From the NCBI RefSeq assembly GCF_006517815.1, contig NZ_CP041198.1, forward strand, positions 2,914,001-2,978,000: a DNA stretch of 64,000 bases. The letters are read 5' to 3'. The position numbers were made by a program, and so were the translations under genes. This document shows, one piece after another, positions 1 through 49,244 of this stretch (within the stretch, counting starts at the first letter, position 1; the number at the start of each line of letters is the position of its first letter). A model generated the notes under the pieces. It saw nothing but the letters and a program-made list of their open reading frames with translations, did no database searches and was not told the DNA's origin. Origin of the DNA: Pseudarthrobacter sp. NIBRBAC000502770. Its GTDB lineage: Bacteria > Actinomycetota > Actinomycetes > Actinomycetales > Micrococcaceae.

Positions 1-299
1 CCCACAGCTTCGGGCCCTGGCTCGCCGCCGCCGTCGTCCTTGGCCTGGGCACCGCCCTGGTCTACCCCACGCTGCTTGCCGCCATCGGGGACGTCGCCCA
101 CCCGGCCTGGCGGGCCCGCTCCGTGGGCGTCTACCGGTTGTGGCGCGACGGTGGCTTCGCCGTGGGCGCCCTCCTGTCAGGCGTCCTTGCAGACCTTTAC
201 GGCATCCCCGCAGCCATCGCCGCCGTCGCGGTGCTCACCGCCGCCTCCGGCGTCGTGGTGGCCGTCCGGATGCGCGGGAACGACCACGTCATGGGGTAG
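1..299 (+). CDS. MFS transporter, C-terminal fragment
   Basis: The reading frame is open from the left edge (first whole codon at base 3) to a TAG at 297-299, giving 98 residues. It shows two hydrophobic helices joined by a polar loop with the wording RARSVGVYRLWRDGGFAVGA, typical of the second half of major facilitator permeases. The substrate cannot be read from this fragment and the N-terminal part lies outside the window. Its last 103 bases overlap the 3' end of the convergent hydrolase gene on the other strand. Confidence 0.75.
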   Translation, partial: HSFGPWLAAAVVLGLGTALVYPTLLAAIGDVAHPAWRARSVGVYRLWRDGGFAVGALLSGVLADLYGIPAAIAAVAVLTAASGVVVAVRMRGNDHVMG

Positions 300-1273
300 T
301 ACAGGTCGGCCGGGGCCAGGAACCGCCGGATCTCTTCCGCCATCCGCCCTGCCTGCGTCCAGTGCAGGTAATGGCCGCCCGGCAGGGGCAGCACCTGGTG
401 CAGTGTGACGTTCTTGAGGAGTTCCTCCGCTGCAGCCGTTTTCGCGGCCGCCCTGCCGTCCCCTTCATCGGCGATGAAGGCCAGCACGGGCAGGTCCTCC
501 GGGTAGGTGGCTCCCCGGAGCGCCGCCGCGTTGTTGCCGATTCGCCCGGTTTCATCCGCCACCGCCGGATTGCCGAGGTTCCACAGCATCATGGTGCGCA
601 TCCGTTGCAGCTCTTCATCCGAATAGGCGTGGCTGTCCGGATCGAAGATCCCCGGAGCCACCGCGGCAGCCACGCGGACCAGCCCCGTGGAGGCCAGGAG
701 CTTCACCCAGTTGATGCCGGGCTCCGGTTCCGCCACCGGGTGGTCTCCGGGCTTGGGGATGGTGGCGTCAATGCCCACCACCGCGGCCACCTCCGGGCGG
801 TACCGGTTGGCGTAGTCCAGCAGGTAAAACCCGGCGATCGAGTGGCCCGCCAGGACGTAAGGCTGGCGGAGCTGGAGCTTTGACAAGGCCTCGTGGAGTT
901 CGTTGCTGATGTTCTCGTTGGTCCGGGCCTTGGCCTCCAGGTCGCTGTAGCCATAACCGAAGCCTTCCACCACCAAGACGTCGAAGTCGTGCAGTTCGCG
1001 CATCAGCGGGGCAAAGTCGAGGCCCGGGGCGGCAGTTCCCAGGCCGCTGAGCAGGACGATGGGCGGACCCTGGCGCCCGGCCCCGCTCCCGTTCCGGACC
1101 ACGTTCAACCACCCCCCGGCCACCGCTATCCGCTCCCCGTAGGAAGGGATGGTCGCCTTCTCCCGCGATTCCAGGGCCACATTGGCCAACGCAGAGGCCA
1201 TCAGCAGCACCAGGACAACTAGTGCCGGGATGCCCAGGCGGCGAAGCCAGCGCCGCGGCCTCCGGGGCTTCAT
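197..1273 (-). CDS. Membrane-anchored alpha/beta hydrolase
   Basis: This protein of about 358 residues has a basic N-terminus followed by one hydrophobic helix (residues 15-32), so it is probably anchored with the catalytic domain outside. The nucleophile elbow GHSIAG (Ser145), an oxyanion region around LLSGLGTA and a late GGHYLHW histidine mark the alpha/beta-hydrolase fold. The start is the ATG at 1273, 7 bases after the acyl carrier protein stop; the longer open frame upstream only mirrors that gene. It is the last gene of the seven-gene operon. A role in releasing an acyl group made by the preceding genes is inference. The C-terminal tail of about 34 residues is encoded opposite the MFS gene and looks low in information, so it may be a late extension. 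Confidence 0.8.
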   Translation of the reverse strand: MKPRRPRRWLRRLGIPALVVLVLLMASALANVALESREKATIPSYGERIAVAGGWLNVVRNGSGAGRQGPPIVLLSGLGTAAPGLDFAPLMRELHDFDVLVVEGFGYGYSDLEAKARTNENISNELHEALSKLQLRQPYVLAGHSIAGFYLLDYANRYRPEVAAVVGIDATIPKPGDHPVAEPEPGINWVKLLASTGLVRVAAAVAPGIFDPDSHAYSDEELQRMRTMMLWNLGNPAVADETGRIGNNAAALRGATYPEDLPVLAFIADEGDGRAAAKTAAAEELLKNVTLHQVLPLPGGHYLHWTQAGRMAEEIRRFLAPADLYYPMTWSFPRIRTATTTPEAAVSTATAAMAAGMP

Positions 1274-1280
1274 GGCAGCT

Positions 1281-1523
1281 CTATCCGTGCCCGGCCAAAT
1301 ACAGGACCAGGCCGCCCACCGTGGCCACGTCCGGGTAGTCCGCCTCCGGGATATCCACGCCCGTGGATTCCGCAATGACTTCCACCAGGCGGAGGAAATC
1401 CAGTGAGTCCAGCTCCAGGTCCTGGCGCAGGCGTGCACCGCTGTCCAGGTCTCCAGGCTCGACGTCGGGGGCGACCTTGCCGATCGCGGCCTCCACCGCC
1501 TGGCGTGCGTCCTGTTCGTTCAC
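1281..1523 (-). CDS. Acyl carrier protein
   Basis: This is an 80-residue acidic protein of the usual size for a discrete carrier protein. The phosphopantetheine attachment motif LELDSLDFL is present (Ser40), followed by the typical helix wording VEVIAESTGVDIPE. It is not next to fatty acid synthesis genes: it sits between the E2 acyltransferase (ends 1545) and an alpha/beta hydrolase (starts 1273), all on one strand with short gaps. The family carries acyl groups as thioesters on its prosthetic arm. That it accepts an acyl group from the neighbouring dehydrogenase complex is inference. A phosphopantetheinyl transferase gene is not seen in the window. Confidence 0.88.
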   Translation of the reverse strand: MNEQDARQAVEAAIGKVAPDVEPGDLDSGARLRQDLELDSLDFLRLVEVIAESTGVDIPEADYPDVATVGGLVLYLAGHG

Positions 1524-1544
1524 GGTTCCTCCTCGATTACGGAT

Positions 1545-2990
1545 TCACAGGTCCCCGGGCTTCTGCAGCAGCTCGTCAATGCGGGCCAGGAACCGCCCGC
1601 CGCGCAGGCCGTCGCTCACCCGGTGGTCCGCTGACAACGTGGCAATGGCCGCGTGCCGGATACCCAGCATCCCGTGGTGCGCCCACGGCTGCTCCAGCAC
1701 CTTGCCGAACCCCACCATGGCCACCTGCGGCGGATAGATCACGCCGTACACGCTCTCGACGCCGAGGTCCCCCAGGTTGGTCACGGTAATGGTGGGGTCG
1801 GCCATCTCCGCGCGCTGCAGCCGGCCGGCCCTGGCCCGGCCCACCAGGTCGCGCAGCTGGTCCATGAGCTGATCGAGCGTCAATGTGTCGGCGTCGTGTA
1901 GGGCCGGGGCCACCAGCCCGCCGGGCCGCAAGGCGACTGCCACGCCCAGGTGCACGCTGCTGCTGGCCTGGAAGGCGCCCCTGGTGAAGAACCCGTTCAT
2001 GTCCGGCACCTCCCTGGCCGCGAGCGCGGTGGCTTTCAGCAGCAGGGCCGACGGCACCAGCCGGGACGAAACCGGGCGCTGCTGGTTCGCCGCCTGCATC
2101 CACGCCATGGCCGCCGCCAGGTCCAGGGTGGTGGAGAGGTAGTAGTGCGGGATTTCCTTCTTGGAGCGGGACATCAGGGCACCGATCGCCTGGCGCAGGC
2201 TTTCGGCCTTGCCGCCGGCGTCCTTCCTGCCGGGGTGGGACGCCAGCTGCGGCTGGGGCGCGGGTGGCGCCGGGGCCTTCAGATCCGGCGTGGCCGGTTC
2301 CGTCGCTGGAACGGCCGACGGCGGTGCTGCCGCCGGCTTGTCCGCGCGGGTGCCCTGGGGTGCCCGTTCCCTGGGCGGGACGGCGGCCAGCACGTCCTCC
2401 TCGGTCACGGCACCCCCGGGGCCCGTTCCTGGGATGCCCGCCAGGTCGACCCCGAGTTCCAGCGCCAGCCGCCGGGCCAGCGGCGACGACCGGACCCGGT
2501 GGGCCGTGTCCTCCGCTGGCCCCGCCGGCGCTTCCGGGGCCACGGCGGGGGCAGGACCGGCGCTGGTGCCGGGTGCTGCCGCGGCGGCGCGTTCGACGTC
2601 GGCCCTGGTCACCTCGCCGTCCGTGCCGCTGCCGCTGATGCGTCCGACGTCGACCCCCAGCGTGTGCGCCAGGTGCCGCACCGGCGGCGCGGCCTTCGGG
2701 GACGGGGCGTCCGCTTGCGGGACGGGCGGGGTTGGGGCGGGCGGAAGTTCAGCGGGAGTGGCCGTGATCCGGGCAATGGGGGTGCCAACGTCCACGGTGT
2801 CGCCGAGGTCCACCAGGAACTCGGCCACTACGCCTTCCTCGAACGATTCGATATCCATGACTGTTTTGTCCGTGTCCACGGCCGCCACGATATCGCCCTT
2901 GTGGACGTAGTCCCCGGGTTTGACCAGCCACTCCACCACCTTGCCGTGCTCCATGTCCGCGCCCAGGGACGGCATCCGGAACTCAGCCAT
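1545..2990 (-). CDS. 2-oxoacid dehydrogenase E2, dihydrolipoyl acyltransferase
   Basis: This 481-residue protein shows, in order: a lipoyl domain (residues 1-78, lipoyl lysine in DTDKTVMD, Lys42), a Pro/Ala linker, a first peripheral-subunit-binding domain (about 103-136), a second one (about 166-203), another linker, and the catalytic domain (about 264-481) with the active motif SADHRVSDG near the end. It moves an acyl group from the lipoyl arm to an acceptor thiol, normally CoA. Two subunit-binding domains with a single lipoyl domain is an uncommon arrangement. The start ATG at 2990 overlaps the E1-beta stop by 8 bases, indicating translational coupling; the longer open frame upstream mirrors E1-beta. 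Confidence 0.93.
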
Positions 2991-3963
2991 TGGCCCCCAC
3001 GGCCCTTCGCGCGGCGGCCATGACCCGCTCCACGGACGGCAGCGCTGCCTGCTCAAGGTGCTTGGCGTACGGGACCGGCACCTCCAGGCTGCACACCCGT
3101 TCCACGGGCGCGTCGAGGTCGAAGAAGGCCTGCTCACAGATCCGGGCCGCGATCTCCGCGGAGATGCTGCCGCTGCGCCAGCCTTCATCCACCACCACGG
3201 CCCGGTGCGTCCTGGCCACGCTGTCCACGACGGTGTGGGCATCGAGCGGGCGGAGGGTGCGGAGGTCGATGACGTCCGCGTCGATGTCCTCCCCGGCAAG
3301 CCGGTTCGCGGCCTCCAGCACCATGGGCAGCGTGCCACCGTAGGTGACGAGGGTCAGGCCGTCCCCATGCCGGAGGACTGCTGCCTTGTCGATGTCCACG
3401 GCGCCGGCGTCGTCGTCGAGCTCCCCCGCAACGTTGTACAGCGAGCCGTGCTCGAAGATCAGCACCGGGTCCGGGTCCTGCAACGCGGTCCACAGCATCC
3501 CGCGGGCGTCCGCCAGGGTGGCCGGGGCCAGGATCCGGAGCCCGGGAATATGGGCGTACCAGCCCTCCAGGCTGTGGGAGTGCTGGGCACCGAGCTGGCG
3601 GCCGGCGCCGGTGGTCATCCGGATCACGATGGGCACGTTGAACTGGCCGCCGGACATGTGCAGCAGCGTGGCGGCGTTGTTGATGATCTGGTCCAGCGCC
3701 AGCAGGCTGAAGTTGACGGTCATGATTTCGACGACGGGACGCATCCCGCCCAGCGCGGAGCCGATGCCCGCGCCGACGAACCCGGACTCGGACAGCGGCG
3801 TGTCGCGGATCCGCTCCGGCCCGAATTCCTCCAGGAGGCCCAGGCTCACGGCGAAGCTGCCGCCGTACCGGCCCACGTCCTCGCCCATGAGGAACACCCG
3901 GTCATCGCGCTGCATGGCGTCGCGGAGGGCCGCGCGCATGGCTTCCCGGTATGTGGTTTTCAT
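2983..3963 (-). CDS. 2-oxoacid dehydrogenase E1 component, beta subunit
   Basis: This 326-residue protein has the standard length and wording of alpha2beta2 E1 beta chains: an N-terminal [12 protein letters not shown] helix, the GEDVGRYGG motif, [22 protein letters not shown] and a C-terminal transketolase-like domain with [12 protein letters not shown]. With the alpha chain it decarboxylates a 2-oxoacid using thiamine diphosphate and acylates the E2 lipoyl group. The sequence does not decide between pyruvate, acetoin-type and branched-chain substrates. It overlaps the alpha gene by 4 bases and the E2 gene by 8, so the three subunits are probably made in step. Confidence 0.93.
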
Positions 3964-5021
3964 CGTGCAGCCCCGCCTTTCCCAGTCGTCTCCCCATGGC
4001 CCGGACCCCCGCCGCTGCCCGCACTGCCGTCATCCGGCCGGTCGCTGTAGACAAACCGGCCGAGCTCGGAGACCGGCTCCAGCGTCCCGTTCTCGGCGAA
4101 TCCGACGGCGGTACTGATCTCTGCGGCCACGTCCGCCTGCAAGTCGGTCCAGTCCTTCTCCGCCAGCTGTCCCGCCGCCTGCATGGAACCCTGCAGCAGG
4201 CTGATGGGGTCCCGTTCCATCCACTGGGCCACCTCGGATTTCTCCCGGTACAGCTCCGGATCGAACATCGAGTGGGCGCGGAACCGGTAGGTGCGCAGCT
4301 CGAGGAAGTGCGGACCGCCGCCGGACCTCACCGCCTCCACCGCACGCCGGGCGGCTTCCTCCACGGCCAGCACGTCCATGCCGTCCACTGCCCAGGCGGG
4401 GATCTCGTACCCGGCGGCCTTGAGCGCGATGTCGGTCTGGGATTCGGAGCGGCCCAGCGCGGTTCCCATGGCGTAAAGGTTGTTTTCGCAGCAGAACAGC
4501 ACCGGCAGCTGCCACAGGGCGGCCAGGTTCATGCTTTCGTGGAACTCTCCTTCAGCCACGGCCCCCTCGCCGAAGAAGCAGACGGTCACCCGCTGGCGGC
4601 CGGCCATCCGGTCCGCAAGGGCCAGGCCGACGGCGAGGGGCAGCCCGCCGGCCACGATCGCGTTTCCGCCATAGAAGCGGGTGGCGGCATCGAAGAGGTG
4701 CATGGACCCGCCGCGGCCCCGGCAGCATCCTTCGGCGTGGCCGTACATTTCGGCGAGGATGGCACCGGCCGAGACACCGCGGAGGAGGGCGTGCCCGTGT
4801 TCGCGGTAGGTGGCCACCACTGCGTCCCCAGGCGCCAGGGTTTCCATCACTCCTGCGGCCACGGCCTCCTCGCCGATGTAGACGTGCAGGAAGCCGCGGA
4901 TCTTGGCGGCACTGTACAGCTCAATGCATTTCTCCTCGAGCCGGCGTACCCGCAGCATCTGCCGCAGCAGGTGCAGTGCATGCTCCGCGTCCGCGACGCC
5001 CTGTTTTTTGAGGCTGGTCAT
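3960..5021 (-). CDS. 2-oxoacid dehydrogenase E1 component, alpha subunit
   Basis: This 353-residue protein carries the thiamine diphosphate motif between [10 protein letters not shown] (151) and ENN (179-181), a slight variant of GDG...NN. It also has the conserved [18 protein letters not shown] and GGSMHLFD segments of the family and the late RFRAHSMFD loop. The C-terminal 25 residues are Gly-rich and probably disordered. It lies downstream of an AMP-forming acyl-CoA synthetase with a 4-base overlap. Compact length and the loop wording resemble acetoin/pyruvate-type E1 alpha rather than the single-chain AceE, but the substrate is not proven. No dihydrolipoamide dehydrogenase (E3) gene lies nearby, so E3 must come from elsewhere. 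Confidence 0.93.
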
Positions 5022-6850
5022 GGCTGGTCCTTCTGCAGGACGGCGGGGCCCGCCGGCGATTCGAGCGTTGACGTATCGCCTTCCGGCAAGCCGAGTTCGC
5101 GGGATTTCAGGAGCCTGCGGAGGATCTTGCCGCTGCGCGTCTTGGGCAGGGAAGTGGTGAAGTCCAGCAACCTGGGTGCCACGGCGGCGCCCAGGCGTTT
5201 CCGTGCGAACCCGATGATCTCCAGCTGGAGCTCCTCGGTGGGCCGGTTGCCGGTTTTGAGTTCCACAAAGGCCTTGACCACCTCGCCGGCCACCGGGTCC
5301 GGTACGCCGATCACGCCGGCTTCTGCCACGGCCGGGTGCTCCATCAGGCAGCTTTCCACCTCGAATGGGCCGATCAGGTGGCCGGAGGACTTGATGACGT
5401 CGTCACCGCGGCCCACGAACCAGAAGTAGCCGTCGCCGTCGCGCTTTGCCAGGTCGCCCGTGAGGTACCAGCCGCCGGCGAAGCAGCGCCGGTAGCGTTC
5501 ATCCTCGTTGAGGTAGCCGCGGAACATCGAGGGCCAACCGGGGCGGAGCGCCAGCTCGCCCAGGGCGTCCGGCTCGGTGACCAGGACCGCCTCGCCGTCC
5601 TTGACGATCGCCTTGCCGTCGGCGTCGCGGGCCACCAGGGTGGCCTCGATGCCGGGCAGCGGGCGGCCCATCGAGCCGGGGCGGATGTCCATGGCGGCGT
5701 AGTTGGCGATCATGATTCCGCCGGTTTCGGTCTGCCACCAGTTATCGTGCACCGGCAGGCCGAGTACGTCCCGCCCCCACACCACCGCCTCCGGGTTCAG
5801 CGGTTCCCCCACGCTGGCGATGAAGCGCAGCGCGGACAGGTCATGGCCGGACGCACGCTGCGCACCGGCTTTCATGAGCATCCGCAGGGCGGTGGGGGCC
5901 GTGTACCAGACCGTCACGCGCTGCTCCGCGAGGATCCTGTACCAGCGGTCTGCGTCCAGTTCCTCCTGGTCCACGATGGCGGTGACCCCGTGCACCAGTG
6001 GCGCGATGATGCCGTAGGACATGCCGGTCACCCAGCCCGGATCGGCGGTACACCAATAGATGTCGTCCGGGTGCAGGTCCAGCGCGAAGCGGCCGGTGGC
6101 GTAGTGGGCTGCCACCGCGTCATGGACGTGGATGGCACCCTTCGGTGTGCCTGTGGTGCCGCTGGTGAAGTGCAGCAGGGCCATGTCCTCCGGCTGCGTG
6201 GCTGCGATCTCTCCGCTGGGGTCAGCCAGGGCCAGGAGTGCTGCCAGGTCCAGGGTCCCGGGTTCGGGACTGCCGCCGGCGTCCACCAGCAGCACGTGCC
6301 GGAGCTCCGGCAGGGTGTCCCGCACCGGTGCCACCTTTTTGCGGTACAGCGCCTTGGTGGTCACCAGCACGCGCCCGGCCCCCAGGTGCAGCCGCTGCCG
6401 GACCGGTTCGGGACCGAAGGCGGAAAAGAGCGGGCAGAAGACGCTGCCGTTCTTGAACGTGCCCAGTACCGCCGTGTACAGGCCCGGGCTGCGTCCCAGC
6501 AGCGAAAAAACCCGCTCACCGCGCCCCACGTCCAGGTCCCTGAGGACTGCGGCGAACCTGGCGGATCCGTCCGCAAGGTCCCCGTAGCTCAGGGACCGGG
6601 TGCCACCGTCGGCCATCACGAACCGCAGCGCCTCCTTGGCGCCGCGGCCCTCCGCCACGTGCCGGTCCACGGCCTCGTAGGCGATGTTGACGCCGCGGCC
6701 GCCGGGCAGCCCGGCCAGCGCCTGCCGCGCCTGCTCCCAGTTGAAGTCCCGCCGGGCGGCGTCGTAATCCGGCATGTTGGGCTGGACCCTGAGGGCGGCC
6801 ACATCCTTGGCGATGGCGGCGATGGCCGGTCTGCCGGCGGAAACGTTCAT
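5018..6850 (-). CDS. AMP-forming acyl-CoA (acetate-CoA) synthetase
   Basis: This 610-residue member of the adenylate-forming superfamily has the ATP loop [12 protein letters not shown] (229-240), the WWQTETGG motif, the [20 protein letters not shown] hinge and the C-terminal [13 protein letters not shown] lysine. The WWQTE motif and overall wording place it with AcsA-type acetyl/propionyl-CoA synthetases. It converts a short carboxylic acid, ATP and CoA to acyl-CoA. The chosen ATG at 6850 overlaps the upstream fusion gene by 4 bases; the extra N-terminal frame is a mirror. Its position before E1/E2 suggests that it and the complex feed one acyl-CoA or acyl-carrier pool. Confidence 0.9.
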
Positions 6851-8187
6851 TCCCTGGCCTCCGGCACGGACCGGCCCACAGGCGAGGGCAGGAGGTAATG
6901 CCGGAACCAGTCCGCCGCCAGTGTGGCTGCCATGGCGAGGGTGCCGGGTTCCTCGAAGAGGTGCGAGGCGCCGGGGACGATCTCCAGCCGGGTGGGGGCC
7001 TGCATGGCCGCCATGGCCTGCCGGTTGAGGGCCAGCACCTGGGTATCGGCGCCGCCGACGATCAACAGCGTGGGGGCTTTGACCGCCGCAAGCCGCGGAC
7101 CTGCCAGGTCCGGCCGGCCGCCCCGGGACACCACGGCGGCAACCTGGGCGCCGGGCTCGGCGGCAGCCCACAGGGCAGCACCCGCGCCGGTGCTGGCCCC
7201 GAAGTAGCCGATCCGGCCGGCGGATCCGTCATGCCGCGCCTCCAGCCAATGCGTGGCGGCGGAAAGACGGCGTGCCAGCAGGCTGATGTCGAACACGTTG
7301 GCCCGGTTGACCTCCTCCTCAGGGGTCAGCAGGTCCAGGAGCAGTGTCCCCAGGCCGGCGGCGTGCAGCACGGAGGCGACGAAGCGGTTGCGCGGGCTGT
7401 GCCTGCTGCTGCCGCTGCCGTGCGCGAACAGGACCGTGCCTTCGCAGCGGGCCGGCAGGTAGAGGCTGCCGCGCAGCACCACCATTCCGTCGGGGATTTC
7501 GACGTCGTCCTCCAGGCTGCCATCTCCCCCATACGCGCCATTGGGATGCTCCGGAGCAGCAGCGGCGTCCAGGAGCTGAACCACCTCGCCGTCCTCGGTG
7601 GGCGAAAAGTCACGGTAGTAGTACCCCACGGCCTGGAAGTCCTGGGGCGAGACCAGGCAGACGACGTCGTCCGGTTCCTTGAGCTCCACGATGGCGCGGG
7701 CGGGGGCAACCGGAACAGCGAGGATGACTTTTGCGGCACCGAGTTGCCGTGCCACCTGGCAGGCCGCCCTGGCGGTTGAACCGGTGGCGATTCCGTCGTC
7801 GACGATGACCGCCGTACGGCCGGCGAGGTCGAGGCGGCTGCGCCCCTGGCGGAAGCGCGCCACCCTGCTTTCCAGCAGGGCGCGCTCACGGCGCTCCACC
7901 TGCTGCAGGTCCTCCTGGGAGACGCGGGCCATGGAGATGGTGCGCGGGTCCAGGACGCGGACGTTGCCCTCCCCGATGGCGCCCATGGCCACCTCCGGCT
8001 GGAAGGGAACCCCCAGTTTCCGCACCACAATCACGTCCAGCGGCGCCTCCAGGGCTTTGGCTACCTCAAACGCAACAGGGACGCCGCCCCTGGGCAGGCC
8101 CAGCACCACCACATCCGGTCCCCGCAGGCCGGCGAGCCGCTTTCCCAGCCGCCGCCCGGCGTCGGACCTGTCATGGAATGACACCAT
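6847..8187 (-). CDS. Phosphoribosyltransferase / dienelactone-hydrolase-like fusion
   Basis: This protein of about 446 residues joins two domains. Residues 1-205 form a phosphoribosyltransferase fold with the PRPP loop [12 protein letters not shown] (127-138). Residues about 235-446 form an alpha/beta hydrolase with FAHGSGSS and the nucleophile motif GASTG (Ser332), plus a late GASHLF histidine. The same fusion and length are known from Mycobacterium tuberculosis Rv0571c, a member of the DosR dormancy regulon; this comparison is from memory. The ATG at 8187 is preferred over an in-frame TTG at 8223 because its N-terminus is the usual one, although neither has a strong ribosome site. It is the first gene of the operon and overlaps the synthetase by 4 bases. 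Confidence 0.85.
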
Positions 8188-8324
8188 CGCCGTCACCCGT
8201 CGTGTGTGGTTTGGTCTGTCCAAAGTTGCGCGCGGGCGGAGTCCGCCATGGCCTCCGGTGCTGCGGGAACGGCCACGGATCCCACTCCGCAGCGCAGCAC
8301 CTCAGCCATGGCGGACTCCTCCTG

Positions 8325-8681
8325 CTAATGCGAGACGCGGTAGGTGTGGCGGAGGTCGGTGCTGGGCTTAATGGCCACCGCTGTTACCACCAGTGCCACT
8401 GCCCCTGCGATCCATGACGTCCAGGCCGCACCCGTTGCGCCCGTGTATGTCCCGAGCCATGGCGAGAGGACCAGTCCTGCTGCGAGGACGGCCTGCACGT
8501 ATTCCATGGCCGGAGTTCCCGGCATTGCCAGGTTGATGATTCCGCTGACCACCAGCAGGCCGCCGAAGGCGAGCATCAAGGTGGTGGACATGTTTTGCTG
8601 CCGCGTGAACAGGACCGCCACCGCGGTGAAGAGTCCGGCGGCGACTGCTACATAGTCCTGCCACCGATACCACTTTTTCAC
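8325..8681 (-). CDS. SPW-repeat membrane protein
   Basis: This is a 118-residue protein with four predicted membrane helices and the SPWLGTYTG motif (73-81) followed by AWTSWIAGA, as in SPW-repeat proteins. Only one clear SPW copy is present. The start is GTG at 8681 behind AAAGGAAA. Function is unknown; the family is a small integral membrane protein. It lies 137 bases upstream of, and in the same direction as, the seven-gene operon and could be co-transcribed with it. Confidence 0.75.
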   Translation of the reverse strand: MKKWYRWQDYVAVAAGLFTAVAVLFTRQQNMSTTLMLAFGGLLVVSGIINLAMPGTPAMEYVQAVLAAGLVLSPWLGTYTGATGAAWTSWIAGAVALVVTAVAIKPSTDLRHTYRVSH

Positions 8682-8822
8682 TGACTTTCCTTTCTGTTCG
8701 GGGCGGGACGCGTTGTGCGTTTCCGGCCCGCGGTCCCCAGCATCCCGCGTTTTAAGTCAACGCCTGCCGCTGTCCGGCTTGTAGGGCAGAAAGACCTACC
8801 CGGCCCTTGCACTCCCGGTACT

Positions 8823-8863
8823 CAGTGTTACTATTTACTAGTAGTCAGCGTTACTAGGTACTA
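8823..8863 (+). promoter_or_regulatory. Direct repeats upstream of padR
   Basis: The 11-mer CAG(T/C)GTTACTA occurs at 8823-8833 and 8846-8856, 23 bases apart, with an overlapping TACTAGTA palindrome between them and a third TACTA at 8859-8863. The patch is AT-rich against a GC-rich background and ends just before the padR ribosome site AAGGA (8863-8867). It is a good candidate operator for autoregulation by PadR, but that is inference. Confidence 0.5.
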
Positions 8864-8874
8864 AGGAACACCTC

Positions 8875-9225
8875 ATGGGCAAACAGATGACCGAGATGCT
8901 CAAGGGCACGCTGGAAGGCGTGGTCCTTGCCCTCCTCGCCCTGCAGCCCGCGTACGGGTATGACATCACGGCGCGGCTGCGGGAACAGGGCTTTTCCGAC
9001 ATCGCCGAGGGCACGGTGTACGCGCTGCTGGTCCGGATCGAGCAGCGTGGCCTGGTGGACGTGGAAAAGGTCCCCTCCGAAAAGGGGCCGCCCCGCAAGG
9101 TGTACACCCTCAATGCGGCAGGCAGCACCTACCTGGACGAATTCTGGAGCACCTGGAGCTTCCTTGCCGAACGGATCGAACACCTCCACCACAACAACAA
9201 CCAACCAACGGAACAAGGAGAATGA
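8875..9225 (+). CDS. PadR-family transcriptional regulator
   Basis: This 116-residue protein has the PadR winged-helix wording: LKGTLEGVVLALLALQPAYGYDI, then EGTVYALLVRIEQRGLV and the wing PPRKVYTL, with a short C-terminal helix for dimerisation. PadR proteins usually repress nearby efflux genes and are released by a ligand. The gene is the first of an operon with a DUF1048 protein and a two-part ABC exporter, and overlaps into the next gene's ribosome site. The start is supported by AAGGA 7 bases upstream. The ligand is unknown; the exporter downstream suggests a toxic small molecule. Confidence 0.9.
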   Translation: MGKQMTEMLKGTLEGVVLALLALQPAYGYDITARLREQGFSDIAEGTVYALLVRIEQRGLVDVEKVPSEKGPPRKVYTLNAAGSTYLDEFWSTWSFLAERIEHLHHNNNQPTEQGE

Positions 9226-37695: not shown

Positions 37696-38118
37696 CTAAG
37701 CGGCGATTTCCTGCTTTGCCCCCTTCGTTTCGATCTCGATCTTGCGCGGCTTGGCCTTTTCGGCAACCGGGATCCGCAGCGTCAGGACGCCGGCGTCATA
37801 GCTGGCCTTGATGTGGTCAGTGTCCAGCGTGTCGCCGAGGATCAGTTGGCGGCTGAAGACGCCGCGCGGCCGTTCAGAGGCGACCAATTCGGTGTCCTTG
37901 CCCACGGGGTCCGGGCGTTCGGCCCGCACCGTCAGGACATTCCGTTCAACATCCAGGTCCACCGAGTCCACCGAGACACCGGGCAAATCAAAGGCCACGA
38001 CGAATTCCTGGTCCTCTCGCCATGCATCCATCGGCATCGCCGCCGGGCGTGCAGCCGTGCCGAGGACCTGCTGGGCCAGCCTGTCCAGCTCGCGGAACGG
38101 ATCGGTTCGCATCAACAT
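37696..38118 (-). CDS. Small heat-shock protein, Hsp20 family
   Basis: This 140-residue protein has the alpha-crystallin domain: [34 protein letters not shown] at the front and [23 protein letters not shown] with the IxI-like tail at the back. It holds unfolding proteins in a soluble state. The start ATG is behind GAGGAGGGA. An 8-bp inverted repeat (38159-38184) and a single TTAGCACT half-site (38193-38200) lie in its promoter region, consistent with stress control. Confidence 0.92.
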
Positions 38119-44842: not shown

Positions 44843-46006
44843 TCAGGAGGCAGCTGACCCGACGACGGCGGCGGTCGCCTCCGCGATGGCGCGCTCCTCG
44901 TCGGTGGGAACCACCAGGACGGGGATCGCCGAGCCCGGCGTGGATATGACGCGCGGTTCCTTTGACCGCTCAGCGTTCAGGCCGCCGTCGAGCTCGATGC
45001 CCAGGGCGCCGAGCCGGTCCGCCACATGCGCCCGGAACTGCCGGGAGTTCTCGCCGATTCCGGCGGTGAACACCAGCGCCTTGGCCCCGCCGACGGCCAC
45101 GTGGTAGCCGCCGATGTACTTGGCCAGCCGGTAGGACGCCACCGCGAGCGCCATGCTGGCCTTCTCGTCGCCGGACTCGGCGGCCTCCACCACGGAGCGC
45201 ATGTCGTTGTTGCCGGCCAGGCCTTTCAGCCCGGATTCACGGTTCAGCATGGTGTCGATGTCCTCCGGCGTCCACCCGGCACGGCCCAGGAACACCAGGA
45301 TGGACGGATCCAGGTCGCCGGAGCGGGTGCCCATCACCAGGCCTTCGAGCGGAGTGAAACCCATGGAGGTGTCCACGGAGAGGCCGCCCCGGATGGCGGT
45401 GGCGGACGCGCCGTTGCCCAGGTGGGCGATGACGCCGTCGAACTCCTCGATGGGGACGTCCAGCAGCGCCGCGGCCCGGCGCGCAACATACTCGTGCGAG
45501 GTGCCGTGGAAGCCGTACCGGCGGATGCCGTGGTTGGTGTACAGCTCGTCCGGGACGGCGTAGCGCCAGGCATGCTCGGGCAGGGTGCGGTGGAAGGCGG
45601 TGTCGAAGACGGCCACCTGCGGCATCTTGGGCCATTTCCTGGTGATCGCACGGATGCCCAGGACATTGGCGGGGTTGTGCAGCGGCGCCAGCGGGTTGAG
45701 GCGTTCGATCGCACGGGTGATTTCGTTGTCCACCAGCACGGGCTCGGCGAACCGCTCGCCGCCGTGGACCACCCGGTGCCCCACGGCGCCCAGTTCCCGG
45801 TCCCCCAGCTCCCGGTGGATCGCCGCGTCAACCTGTTCCAGGGCCTCGGCGTGGTCCCGCGGGCCTTCGACCTCACCGTCCCCGCCGCCGCCGTTGCCCA
45901 TGCCGATCTTCTCGATCAGTCCCTCTGTGAGTACTGTCCCGGCCGCCACGTCACGGACCTGGTACTTCAACGACGACGAACCGGAGTTGATGACGAGCAC
46001 GAGCAT
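44843..46006 (-). CDS. ackA: Acetate kinase
   Basis: This 387-residue protein has VLVINSGSSSLKYQ at the N-terminus, VGHRVVHGGERF, the catalytic region FDTAFHRTLPEHAWRYAVP, YGFHGTSHEYV, IAHLGNGASATAI and VFTAGIGENS. It interconverts acetyl phosphate and acetate with ADP/ATP. It normally pairs with phosphate acetyltransferase; here pta lies on the same strand but 7.1 kb upstream, with other genes between. A short acidic insert (GNGGGGDGEVEG) follows residue 36. Confidence 0.96.
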   Translation of the reverse strand: MLVLVINSGSSSLKYQVRDVAAGTVLTEGLIEKIGMGNGGGGDGEVEGPRDHAEALEQVDAAIHRELGDRELGAVGHRVVHGGERFAEPVLVDNEITRAIERLNPLAPLHNPANVLGIRAITRKWPKMPQVAVFDTAFHRTLPEHAWRYAVPDELYTNHGIRRYGFHGTSHEYVARRAAALLDVPIEEFDGVIAHLGNGASATAIRGGLSVDTSMGFTPLEGLVMGTRSGDLDPSILVFLGRAGWTPEDIDTMLNRESGLKGLAGNNDMRSVVEAAESGDEKASMALAVASYRLAKYIGGYHVAVGGAKALVFTAGIGENSRQFRAHVADRLGALGIELDGGLNAERSKEPRVISTPGSAIPVLVVPTDEERAIAEATAAVVGSAAS

Positions 46007-46506: not shown

Positions 46507-47703
46507 CTAGGCCCAGGCGCCCTGTCCCTGCCTCGCCAGGTACTCGAAGAGCCGGCGGAGGCCGAAGGTCCATTCCGGCAGTTCCTCGCATGGACCCACT
46601 GTGTTGACCAAGGCGCCCAGGTGGCGGCTGCGGATGGTGACGACATCGCCGTGCTTGTGGGTGAAGCCCTGTCCCGGCACGTCCCGGTCCTGCGTGGGCG
46701 CAAAGAGGGTCCCCGTGAACAGCGCGAAGCCGTCCGGATACTGGTGGTGCTTCCCGTGGGTGGCGGCCACGAGTTCCTCGAAGGGCCTGCTGATGCGGGC
46801 AACGCTGTTCCGGCCCTCCAGCAGGTACCCGTCCGAACCGTCCACGCGGAGCAGGATCTCCTCATCGCGGAGCGTCTCCAGCGTGAAGGTCCCGTCGAAC
46901 AACCTGATGAACGGCCCCAGCGCGCTGGACGCGTTGTTGTCCTTGGCCTTGCCCAGCAGCAGGGCGCTCCTGCCTTCCACATCGCGCAGGTTCACGTCGT
47001 TGCCCAGCGTTGCCCCCACCACGCGCCCGCTGGCGGTGGCAATGAGCACCAGCTCCGGTTCGGGGTTGTTCCAGGACGAGAAGGCCGGGATGCCGATTCC
47101 ATCGCCGAGGCCGACCGATGACAGGACGGGCGCCTTGGTGAAGACCTCGGGGTCCGGGCCGATCCCTACCTCCAGGTACTGCGACCAGAGCCCTTCGGCG
47201 ACCAGGACCCGCTTGGCTTCGGCGGCTTCCGCCGAGCCGGGCCGGAGGTCGGCCAGGCTGCCGCCCAGCGCGCGGCCCACCAGCTCCCGCACCTCAGCAG
47301 CCCGCCCGGCGTCGCCCGCGCAGCGCTCCTCGATGACGCGCTCGACCATGCTGTCCACGAACGTCACGCCGCAGGCTTTGATGACCTGGAGGTCGATGGG
47401 TGCCAGCAGGCGGGTCCGGGGGTGGTCACCCGCCAGGGAGGCATTGACGACGTCGGCGGTCGCCCAGCGCGGTTCGGCGAGGGTGGGATCCGGCAGGGCA
47501 GAGCGGACGGCAGCGGCGGGGTCCGGCAGTTCCAACAGCCCGGCAACGGTGGGGGCCAGGCGGTGCAGGTCGTAGACGGTGTTCCCGCTGACGGCCACCA
47601 CGCGCGGCCCCGCCGTTTCCCCATCCCAGACCCGGCCGATGAGCAGTGCGTCGTCGGCGTCGTCGGGAAGGACGGAGCGTGCTGCCCCGGACACCGGGCT
47701 CAC
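46507..47703 (-). CDS. FAH-family enzyme, likely 2-keto-3-deoxy-aldonate dehydratase
   Basis: This 398-residue protein starts at a GTG overlapping the aldehyde dehydrogenase stop by 4 bases, behind GGAGGG. It has the fumarylacetoacetate-hydrolase-like core: SSWNNPEPELVLIA with metal-binding Glu residues, GATLGNDVNLRD, and a long N-terminal domain (LLIGRVWDGETAGPRVVAV). This long form resembles XylX of the oxidative xylose pathway, which dehydrates 2-keto-3-deoxy-pentonate to 2-oxoglutarate semialdehyde. The neighbouring semialdehyde dehydrogenase supports that role; a hydrolase role remains possible. Confidence 0.8.
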   Translation of the reverse strand: MSPVSGAARSVLPDDADDALLIGRVWDGETAGPRVVAVSGNTVYDLHRLAPTVAGLLELPDPAAAVRSALPDPTLAEPRWATADVVNASLAGDHPRTRLLAPIDLQVIKACGVTFVDSMVERVIEERCAGDAGRAAEVRELVGRALGGSLADLRPGSAEAAEAKRVLVAEGLWSQYLEVGIGPDPEVFTKAPVLSSVGLGDGIGIPAFSSWNNPEPELVLIATASGRVVGATLGNDVNLRDVEGRSALLLGKAKDNNASSALGPFIRLFDGTFTLETLRDEEILLRVDGSDGYLLEGRNSVARISRPFEELVAATHGKHHQYPDGFALFTGTLFAPTQDRDVPGQGFTHKHGDVVTIRSRHLGALVNTVGPCEELPEWTFGLRRLFEYLARQGQGAWA

Positions 47704-49244
47704 TGCGGTCCCTCCGTCCCGGCTGCGCCAACGGAGGCGCGTCCGGCCGGATGCTGCCATGCGCCGTCGACCCTTTGCGGGACCCGCCAGGGGTTGCTGT
47801 CCTGCAGGGGTTCGGGCAGCCGGGACGCAGGAAACGACTGGTAAGCCACCGGGCGGAGGAAACGGCGGATGGCGGCCGTGCCCACGGACGTGGTGTTTGA
47901 GGTGGTGGCCGGGTACGGGCCGCCGTGGTGCTGGGCGTAACTGACCGTGACGCCCGTGGGCCACCCGTTCCACAGGACGCGCCCGCTGATGTCTGCGAGC
48001 CGGGCAGCGAGTTCGGAGACGTCGTCGTCCTCCTCGGCCTGGAGGGTCGTAGTCAGCTGCCCTTCCAGCAGGTCCGCCAGCCCGGGCAGGTCGGCCTGGT
48101 CGCGGTACTCCACCACCAGGCTGGCGGGGCCGAACATTTCCTGCCGGAGCAGGTGCGGATTCTTCCGGACTTCCTCTGCAGTGGTGTGCAGGACCGTGGG
48201 GGCCGGTTCCTCCGCAAAGTCGCCCGCCACCAGGACATCCACGCCGGCGCTGTCGTGGAGCGTGGCCACGGCATCCGCATAGCCGGCGTGCAGGCGGTCG
48301 CTCAGGAGCCTGGCAGGCGCGAAACCGGCCAGGGCCTCCCCCAGCTGGTCCCGGATCTCCGCCGCGTCCCCGGCGGGCACGAACAGGAGTCCCGGCTTGG
48401 TGCAGAACTGTCCCATGCCCAGGGTGAAGGAACCGGCGTACCCCGTGAGGATCTCCGCGCGCCGGGCCGCCCATGCGTTGGGTGCCACGAAGACGGCGTT
48501 GATGCCACCCAGTTCACCGAAGAACGGGATAGGCTCGGGACGGGCGGCAATCCTGTCGAGCAGGGCACGGCCGCCCGCGGTGGAGCCGGTAAAGCCGATG
48601 GCCTTGACCAAGGGGTGGTCCACCAGCCCTTCGCCCGCCTGCCGGCCGGTCACCAGGGAGAACAGGCCCGACGGCGCCCCGGCAGTATCCAGGGCATCGG
48701 CCACTACGCGGGCGGTGCGGGCGGCGAGTTCGCGGTGTGCGTCGTGTGCTTTGTGCACCACGGAGCAGCCGGCGGCGAGGGCCGAGGCACTGTCCCCTCC
48801 CATCACGCTGAACGCGAAAGGGAAGTTTGACGCGCCGAAAACGCCCACGACGCCGAGGGGCACGTTGTACCGCCGGAGGTCCGGCCGCGGGCCCATGCCC
48901 CAGGCCGGGTCCTGGTGATCGATGGTGGCGTCAAAGTGCTCGCCCCGGCGGATTTCCGCTGCGAACAGCCGCAGCTGGAAGACGGTCCGCTTCAGTTCCC
49001 CCTCCAGCCGGGCGGTACCAAGGTGGGTTTCACGGACGGCCGTTTCCACCAGTCCGACGGCGTCCTGCTCCAAGCCGGCGGCGATCGCTTCGAGCCAGCC
49101 GGCACGGGTGGCCGGATCCACGCGGCGGCCCTGGTCAAAGGCAGCTGCCGCGGCTTCCACGGCCGTGTCCAGGCCACCGGGCGTCGTGAACCCGGCGGTG
49201 CGGTCCGGGGCGAGGCCGACGGCGGCACTTGCTCCGGCGGTCAT
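47700..49244 (-). CDS. 2-oxoglutarate semialdehyde dehydrogenase
   Basis: This 514-residue aldehyde dehydrogenase has [27 protein letters not shown], the glutamate in [13 protein letters not shown] and the catalytic cysteine in [13 protein letters not shown]. These are marks of the KGSADH group, which oxidises 2-oxoglutarate semialdehyde to 2-oxoglutarate with NAD(P). The ATG at 49244 overlaps the dehydratase stop by 4 bases (ATGA). It lies between the two other catabolic genes, in line with sequential steps. Confidence 0.88.

Follow-up and report, generated by a model that had tools for sequence, protein, structure and literature searches.

A recurring gene block in Actinomycetota and on proteobacterial plasmids joins pyruvate dehydrogenase-type E1 and E2 genes with genes for an acetate–CoA ligase and an acyl carrier protein

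Gene content of the operon

The window, i.e., the whole stretch of DNA that was analysed, comprises 64,000 nt of contig NZ_CP041198.1 (positions 2,914,001 to 2,978,000) from Pseudarthrobacter sp. NIBRBAC000502770. The organism that harbours the operon is a soil bacterium. Seven genes, all with open reading frames, lie on the minus strand between positions 8187 and 197 in the following order:

6847..8187, minus strand, phosphoribosyltransferase-dienelactone hydrolase fusion (PRT-DLH), 446 aa (Pfam PF00156, PF01738)
5018..6850, minus strand, AcsA, AMP-forming acetate–CoA ligase type, 610 aa, core gene 1 (NCBIfam NF003313)
3960..5021, minus strand, E1-alpha, pyruvate dehydrogenase type, 353 aa, core gene 2 (TIGR03182)
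2983..3963, minus strand, E1-beta, 326 aa, core gene 3 (NF006667)
1545..2990, minus strand, E2, 481 aa, core gene 4 (PF00364, PF02817 in two stretches, PF00198)
1281..1523, minus strand, acyl carrier protein (ACP), 80 aa, core gene 5 (PF00550)
197..1273, minus strand, N-terminally anchored alpha/beta hydrolase with GHSIAG, 358 aa (PF00561/PF12697)

The successive junctions from PRT-DLH to the hydrolase measure −4, −4, −4, −8, +21, and +7 bases. These coordinates confirm the single-strand operon with overlaps of four and eight bases that had been described in the initial annotation, and Pfam and NCBIfam profiles concur with the domain assignments made there for the seven genes. AcsA clearly exceeds the cut-off of its equivalog model NF003313 (909.8 versus 729 bits), and its best match among solved chains is an acetyl-coenzyme A synthetase (9g79_B, 539 bits). 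Both E1 subunits lie above NCBIfam cut-offs for the pyruvate dehydrogenase (PDH) type, with 441.6 versus 393.85 bits for E1-alpha (TIGR03182) and 407.7 versus 321 bits for E1-beta (NF006667). E2 passes the cut-off of none of the NCBIfam E2 models; according to Pfam, it consists of one lipoyl domain, two E3-binding domains and a catalytic domain with the motif DHRVSDG, and thus has the combination of domains and the DHRxxDG signature expected of a PDH E2. Among solved structures, the best matches for E1-alpha and E2 are from mitochondrial PDH, those for E2 being PDH E2 chains. The ACP gene starts with GTG, preceded by GAGGAGG. Its product contains the sequence DLELDSLDFL and a PP-binding domain with the carrier serine (PF00550, 29.6 bits versus a cut-off of 20.8), and reaches 32.8 bits with the equivalog model TIGR00517, below the cut-off of 70.45.

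The absence of an E3 gene from the operon, already pointed out on first inspection, was borne out: the only E3 of the genome that scores above the lipoamide dehydrogenase cut-off is encoded elsewhere, beside a different E2. When this E3 was searched against 48 loci containing the module described below, no match was obtained at E 1e-10, with its own locus being recovered as a control. The module thus lacks the E3 gene that would be expected alongside a PDH complex, while the E2 in the window retains E3-binding domains.

No RNA element reached the gathering score in the whole window, and none was found in positions 1–9000 at E 0.5. Positions 1–9200 contain no sigma-70-like promoter and five terminator-like sites, compared with a mean of 3.8 in shuffled sequence. 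A candidate phosphotransacetylase, the open reading frame at 46507–48474, was rejected, as Pfam identified it as FAA hydrolase only.

Conservation of a five-gene module

The exact seven-gene order recurs in relatives for the central genes and not for those at both ends, and the conserved unit consists solely of the middle five, encoding AcsA, E1-alpha, E1-beta, E2, and ACP. Their order was found in Micrococcaceae, in other Actinomycetota and on alpha- and betaproteobacterial plasmids, the proteobacterial evidence being plasmid records. It is present in every complete locus, i.e., in 14 loci from the family search, 11 uncut loci from named Micrococcaceae, 10 plasmid records, and 12 loci from other Actinomycetota, with one contig probably being counted twice, in the family search and among the named Micrococcaceae.

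For a set of 49 loci, chosen for holding both E2 and ACP, the two genes reside on one strand at most 46 bases apart in all cases, with a four-base overlap in 28. AcsA is encoded within 200 bases of E1-alpha in 46 of 46 loci. The carrier serine is present in all 49 ACPs, embedded in DS[LM]D in 46 and in DS[FI]D in three. The set keeps locus L037 (from G084) and omits L053, which is probably the same contig as L029, L060, which stops short of ACP, loci L140, L146, L155, and L157, in which a cut or remnant E2 is located alongside ACP, the orphan-ACP loci L036, L141, L151, and L156, and the exception L200.

Among the matches listed for plasmid records, 29 have an E1-alpha with at least 60% identity, in all of them ACP follows about 2.2–2.4 kb past E1-alpha, and the next E1-alpha shares 48% identity. 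In 396 Actinomycetota genomes, E1-alpha scores drop from 491 to 399 bits, and ACP is located about 2.1–2.5 kb past E1-alpha in 13 of the 16 genomes above this gap. Forty ACP-linked E1-alphas, including that from the window, form one clade with a support of 100/100. Furthermore, module E2s share a longer loop, LRxGGL-AP, in place of the T[PD]xGL present in 10 of 12 comparable controls.

An intact AcsA-E1-E2 copy without an ACP gene after E2 occurs in genome G220, and four ACPs of the module clade stand alone (the orphan loci listed above). Locus L037 was rejected as a case of E2-ACP without E1, since its E2 is broken and no more than a short remnant of E1-beta is present, as in a decayed or misassembled copy. 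Two apparent E2-ACP fusions (P0121 and P0122, two of 312 candidates at E 0.001) were rejected as frameshift products in GC-rich sequence; P0121 departs from the E2 frame ahead of the DHRxxDG motif.

Genes flanking the module

In five of the 49 loci, PRT-DLH is encoded no more than 200 bases from AcsA and in the same orientation; it is an accessory, lineage-specific neighbour and no fixed member. Among 29 Micrococcaceae loci, the terminal hydrolase is found in nine, all of them from close relatives, and it yielded no match in the 30 loci outside this family. Its gene is located within 200 bases of ACP in seven of the 49 loci, three of which exhibit a four-base overlap. The N-terminus carries seven K/R and no D/E in residues 1–13, followed by a hydrophobic segment (about residues 12–33), which suggests an anchored, outward-facing protein with an extracytoplasmic catalytic domain.

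Control by hypoxia or starvation had been considered plausible in the initial annotation. Other module loci are often situated among genes of the hypoxia and stress type: several have neighbours for Usp, Hsp20, BON/phospholipid-binding proteins, PpsA, PncB, acetate kinase, and PfkB. A neighbour test gave 17 of 27 module loci versus two of 22 control stretches (p 1.2e-4), a result that is suggestive only, as the controls were picked by position and unmatched. The EreA counts in this survey mirror those for PRT because the EreA query includes the PRT domain; when PRT and EreA were left out, 11 of 27 loci compared with the same two of 22 position-picked, unmatched controls (p 0.02). The pattern GGGACNNNNGTCC, which we take to be a DosR-like box, is not enriched: with up to one mismatch it occurs 24 times in the window versus 43 times expected from shuffling. 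One such one-mismatch site, at 8725–8737, precedes an SPW gene upstream of the operon and is a chance-level match to the presumed pattern. Comparable systems include DosR-type stress gene sets and the low-oxygen-activated (lxa) locus of Burkholderia, with which several module loci have the kinds of neighbours named above in common; among the genes named in Table 2 on that locus, none is called AcsA, PDH, or ACP (PMC4981469).

Proposed function and alternatives

The conserved order and the overlaps, found in two phyla, uphold the earlier notion that the carrier protein belongs with E1/E2 and the synthetase, and they make a carrier-linked acyl route an economical reading. The recurrence of the block suggests that acetyl groups may be handled by the carrier protein as well as by coenzyme A. 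With moderate confidence, we propose that a PDH-like complex passes acetyl groups to, or shares them with, a dedicated holo-ACP, that E3 is borrowed, and that AcsA acts on the same pool. E1 would decarboxylate a 2-oxoacid, most likely pyruvate, and acetylate the lipoyl arm, E2 would then acetylate the phosphopantetheine arm of the holo-ACP, instead of CoA or in addition to it, and a housekeeping E3 would dock on the E3-binding domain and reoxidise lipoate. AcsA would use acetate and ATP to charge either CoA or the same carrier; alternatively, it would work in reverse and form acetate and ATP at high AMP and PPi. The outcome would be an acetyl pool separate from CoA.

Pyruvate dehydrogenase is textbook acetyl-CoA chemistry, and the module resembles the complex with E1-alpha/beta in both E1 subunits, E2 domain order and catalytic motif; it differs by the missing E3 gene, the dedicated ACP and AcsA, and the LRxGGL-AP loop. 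Judging from the ordinary acetyltransferase motif of E2 and the closeness of AcsA to CoA-using acetate ligases, CoA may stay the acceptor. The set could be an ordinary second PDH producing acetyl-CoA, with ACP being merely co-transcribed as the partner of AcsA or a remote enzyme, e.g., providing acetyl-ACP for lipid or storage metabolism. The scores of E1-alpha, E1-beta, and AcsA above NCBI cut-offs for CoA-type enzymes speak for this possibility, as do the orphan ACPs and the ACP-free copy in G220, which show that ACP is separable. Nevertheless, we consider it less likely than the proposed reading, because ACP directly follows E2 in complete loci, often with translational overlap, and AcsA is just as tightly tied to E1-alpha, so that the whole set resembles one unit.

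PDH-like enzymes that load ACPs have precedents, such as NapB/NapD from a natural-product pathway. In PMC5384830 and PMC6335953, carrier priming by such enzymes belongs to natural-product pathways. For QncN/QncL/QncM, ACP loading from ketose phosphate is stated as shown, and for SclQ1-4 it is proposed (PMC6335953). By analogy, E1 of the module could accept a ketose phosphate and load a glycolyl unit onto ACP. The parts list is indeed alike (E1-alpha, E1-beta, lipoyl E2, discrete ACP, no E3 named), by gene content, not by sequence. However, these systems serve peptide natural products, whereas the module occurs in two phyla, has an E1-alpha above the pyruvate dehydrogenase cut-off, carries AcsA in complete loci and, at least in the window, has E3-binding domains in E2, which the table on SclQ4/QncL does not name (PMC6335953). 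Nor is a peptide synthetase a fixed neighbour: in nine of ten annotated regions none is listed in the (incomplete) gene tables, and the remaining one, from Cupriavidus USMAHM13, has two AMP-binding proteins upstream. We regard a ketose phosphate substrate as improbable. The Photorhabdus pepteridine locus, as outlined in PMC5384830, is likewise similar in its PDH-like E1/E2, the lack of E3 in the pathway and a carrier proposed to replace CoA as acceptor; it differs in that the carrier is fused to E2 and a condensation domain (E2-T-C) and in serving secondary metabolism. The module would instead be an accessory metabolic one, often residing amid stress genes.

Lipoylation usually draws on octanoyl-ACP, and the ACP gene adjoins that of a lipoyl protein; a role as dedicated octanoyl donor for the module E2 is all the same quite improbable, as a housekeeping ACP would suffice, AcsA would be left unexplained and a lipoylation enzyme is annotated in none of ten regions (incomplete PLSDB gene tables). 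The full scheme of the initial annotation, in which the loaded ACP is relieved of its acyl group by release or transfer through the terminal hydrolase, fits the seven-base spacing in the window and the closely linked loci, but is highly improbable given the restricted distribution and presumably extracytoplasmic domain of that enzyme.

Returning to acetyl transfer onto the dedicated ACP, a more far-reaching version appears rather unlikely in its entirety: a CoA-sparing route of primary metabolism, in which pyruvate and acetate converge as acetyl-ACP, a stressed or hypoxic cell oxidises pyruvate and regains ATP via reversed AcsA or stores acetyl units without CoA, and a transferable five-gene cassette spreads these abilities across phyla. 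The unit is apparently a mobile module. Precedent for the reverse direction is provided by Acs1 of Syntrophus aciditrophicus, an AMP-forming acetyl-CoA synthetase operating in reverse for ATP, in connection with which the relevant text of PMC4992975 names no ACP or PDH operon. A search with narrow terms retrieved no open-licence paper describing an AcsA-E1-E2-ACP operon in title or abstract. If the proposal is true, the central metabolism of some bacteria would include a second acetyl currency, used probably under stress, and annotations as pdhA, pdhB, acsA, and 'acyl carrier protein' would need reinterpretation. A carrier-bound version of PDH would then be widespread and transferable. The carrier family itself has many members, with 7590 of 8000 scored candidates matching at E 0.001 irrespective of gene context, and other uses are therefore likely.

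The operon and its proteins

The operon comprises seven genes, all on the minus strand, that run from position 8187 to position 197 of the window with junctions of -4, -4, -4, -8, +21 and +7 bases, in agreement with the overlapping, co-directional arrangement proposed in the initial annotation, whose domain assignments were likewise borne out for all seven genes by Pfam and NCBI family models. The E1-alpha and E1-beta proteins score above the NCBI cut-offs for pyruvate dehydrogenase (PDH) subunits, and the synthetase AcsA lies far above that for AMP-forming acetate--CoA ligase. In E2, a single lipoyl domain and two E3-binding domains are joined to a catalytic domain that ends in DHRVSDG; the protein reaches the cut-off of none of the NCBI E2 models. 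The acyl carrier protein (ACP) passes the Pfam PP-binding cut-off and none of the NCBI ACP cut-offs; its closest named relatives stem from Pseudarthrobacter and Arthrobacter.

Conservation of a five-gene module

AcsA, E1-alpha, E1-beta, E2 and ACP form a fixed partnership. This is evident from 49 loci that were selected for holding E2 and ACP and are not independent of each other (26 from Micrococcaceae, 10 from plasmids and 13 from other Actinomycetota; in several, the E2 reading frame is interrupted in draft sequence and was used unmended). E2 and ACP are encoded on the same strand and at most 46 bases apart in all 49, with a 4-base overlap in 28. Distances of 200 bases or less separate AcsA from E1-alpha in 46/46 loci holding both, E1-alpha from E1-beta in 44/47 and E1-beta from E2 in 46/47. 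The serine motif of the ACP reads DS[LM]D in 46 cases and DS[FI]D in three, and DHR is present in every E2, the Asp of DHRxxDG being replaced in four (L069, L078, L071 and L058: Gly in two Leisingera, His in Sinorhizobium and Asn in A. nitrophenolicus proteins). Conservation of the full gene order stood for the five-gene core, which is kept across two phyla, and failed for the genes at the ends: the terminal hydrolase was matched in only 9 of 29 Micrococcaceae loci, and the gene for the PRT-dienelactone hydrolase fusion (PRT) is often separate, on the opposite strand or absent there. In Pseudarthrobacter sp. Fe7 (L054, 3007-4098), an open reading frame that by eye resembles the erythromycin-esterase family lies between PRT fusion and AcsA; the window has no such gene at this place.

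With E1-alpha as the query, 72,556 plasmid records yielded 631 matching records, 30 of them with 60-80% identity, of which 29 were listed; the next listed protein shares 48%. A search with ACP retrieved 35 records, including all 29 of these accessions, and in each of the 29 the ACP is encoded on the strand of E1-alpha, about 2.2-2.4 kb beyond it. Five of the 35 are not among the records found with E1-alpha, and for one more Leisingera record an ACP adjoining E2 is known from the ACP list only. The matches listed include a gammaproteobacterial (Photobacterium) plasmid. Ten of the 29 regions were opened (two each from Leisingera and Rhodococcus, and one each from Sinorhizobium, Streptomyces, Sulfitobacter, Burkholderia savannae, Methylocystis and Cupriavidus), and all ten have the order acsA, E1-alpha, E1-beta, E2, ACP. 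In the three roseobacter records among these ten, E1-alpha and E1-beta are annotated as a single gene.

When 40 ACP-linked E1-alpha proteins were placed in a tree with 24 others, all ACP-linked sequences fell into one clade (support 100/100), and ACP linkage required one change as compared with 19.7 in shuffles. The controls of this tree include neither ordinary proteobacterial PDH nor QncN. The ACP-linked E2s also share a loop, LRxGGL-AP (L in 46/49, R in 48/49), that is one residue longer than in the controls, which read T[PD]xGL in 10 of the 12 with letters at this position (5 of 17 are gapped); human-type PDH E2 has TPAGL.

Distribution in Actinomycetota

Among 197 Micrococcaceae genomes, that of the window included, 15 encode the ACP (E 1e-8 or better). 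These hold it at 16 places, 15 of which have an adjoining E2: 14 complete five-gene sets and one decayed copy (L037). An E2 scan of named genomes yielded 13 loci in 12 Micrococcaceae genomes, one being spread over two contigs, and ACP follows E2 in all 11 uncut loci, of which L053 is probably the same contig as L029. The remaining eight matches are distant E2s of about 25-33% identity, none with an ACP match.

When the best five first-look candidates were scored in each of 396 Actinomycetota genomes, E1-alpha was found at E 1e-100 in 59, with a gap between 491 and 399 bits. Above it lie 16 genomes (own included), and in 13 of these the contig with E1-alpha also carries the ACP gene, some 2.1-2.5 kb further on; two, G573 and G539, cannot be assigned because the contig stops inside E2 and E1-beta, respectively. 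The exception is G220, with intact AcsA, E1 and E2 genes and no ACP after E2 (L200, G220:C155:25000-44500); other contigs of this genome hold one ACP adjoining an E2 remnant and one orphan ACP. An open reading frame resembling AMP-binding synthetases lies about 1.2 kb further along from the ACP-free copy. Below the gap, none of the genomes listed has an ACP near E1-alpha (ACP matches to about E 2e-11). Three genomes (G398, G389 and G530) have the ACP and no E1-alpha in the E 1e-100 scan; a cut E2 adjoins it in the first two, and none was found beside that of G530.

Orphan ACPs belonging to the same clade as the module ACPs are encoded at four loci:

L036, 10056-10271, the orphan among the 16 Micrococcaceae places, after a glycosyltransferase-like gene (by eye)
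L141, 5544-5861, amid CBS-domain and P-type-ATPase-like genes (by eye)
L151, 4596-4805
L156, 4371-4595

Given such solitary members and the large size of the carrier family, the ACP may have more than one partner.

Possible function

Transfer of an acetyl group from lipoyl-E2 to the ACP would be the simplest reason for the fixed E2-ACP pair. Precedents are carrier loading by the PDH-like QncN/L/M and homologues (PMC6335953) and the E2-carrier fusion of the pepteridine pathway, whose authors propose a carrier primed instead of CoA and note that the pathway lacks an E3 (PMC5384830). AcsA could charge either this carrier or CoA; for an acetyl-CoA synthetase of Syntrophus, operation in reverse with formation of ATP is reported (PMC4992975). 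Judged from sequence, we infer a complex of PDH type that is linked to a carrier and does not belong to secondary metabolism. Since its core is kept across two phyla and our literature search found no description of this operon among searchable papers, the module is genuine and of more than local interest.

The absence of E3 (lipoamide dehydrogenase), already noticed in the initial annotation, extends to the other loci: with the genome's own E3 as the query, 0 of 48 module loci were matched at E 1e-10, and the control, its own locus, was recovered. The above-cut-off E3 of the genome adjoins a different E2, away from the operon, and as the operon's E2 carries E3-binding domains according to Pfam, E3 is probably borrowed.

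A role of the terminal hydrolase in acyl release, as originally suggested, is unlikely. Of its first 13 residues seven are K/R and none is acidic; a hydrophobic stretch follows. According to the positive-inside rule, the catalytic domain would be outside, apart from the cytoplasmic ACP, and the protein is missing from most other loci.

Stress-related gene neighborhood

At least one gene annotated as universal stress protein, Hsp20, BON, CBS, PpsA, nicotinate phosphoribosyltransferase or acetate kinase is present in nine of the ten opened plasmid regions; that of Cupriavidus USMAHM13 has none by annotation. By tblastn, such genes were found at 6/10 plasmid and 17/27 actinobacterial loci as compared with 2/22 unmatched control stretches. 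Many of these kinds of genes also make up a low-oxygen-activated locus of Burkholderia, which has been likened to the DosR regulon (PMC6127331) and a mutant of which is reported to have poorer survival under anoxia (PMC3759415); the published gene table of this locus names no module gene. The Sulfitobacter copy (L073, 1-4591) lies near genes annotated as alpha/beta hydrolase, FabI, enoyl-CoA hydratase/phosphate acetyltransferase and acetate/propionate kinase; the hydrolase is, at a guess, PhaC-like, and these neighbors may point to a fermentative storage-polymer route.

Stress-type neighbors of the window operon are few, namely the PRT fusion and an SPW-repeat protein; two further genes lie at a distance:

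8325-8681, minus strand, SPW-repeat protein (Pfam), upstream of the PRT fusion
37696-38118, minus strand, Hsp20-family gene, distant from the operon
44843-46006, minus strand, gene for acetate kinase, located about 37 kb away from the operon

The Rhodococcus qingshengii island likewise has an annotated SPW-repeat protein, encoded near a gene of the erythromycin-esterase family.
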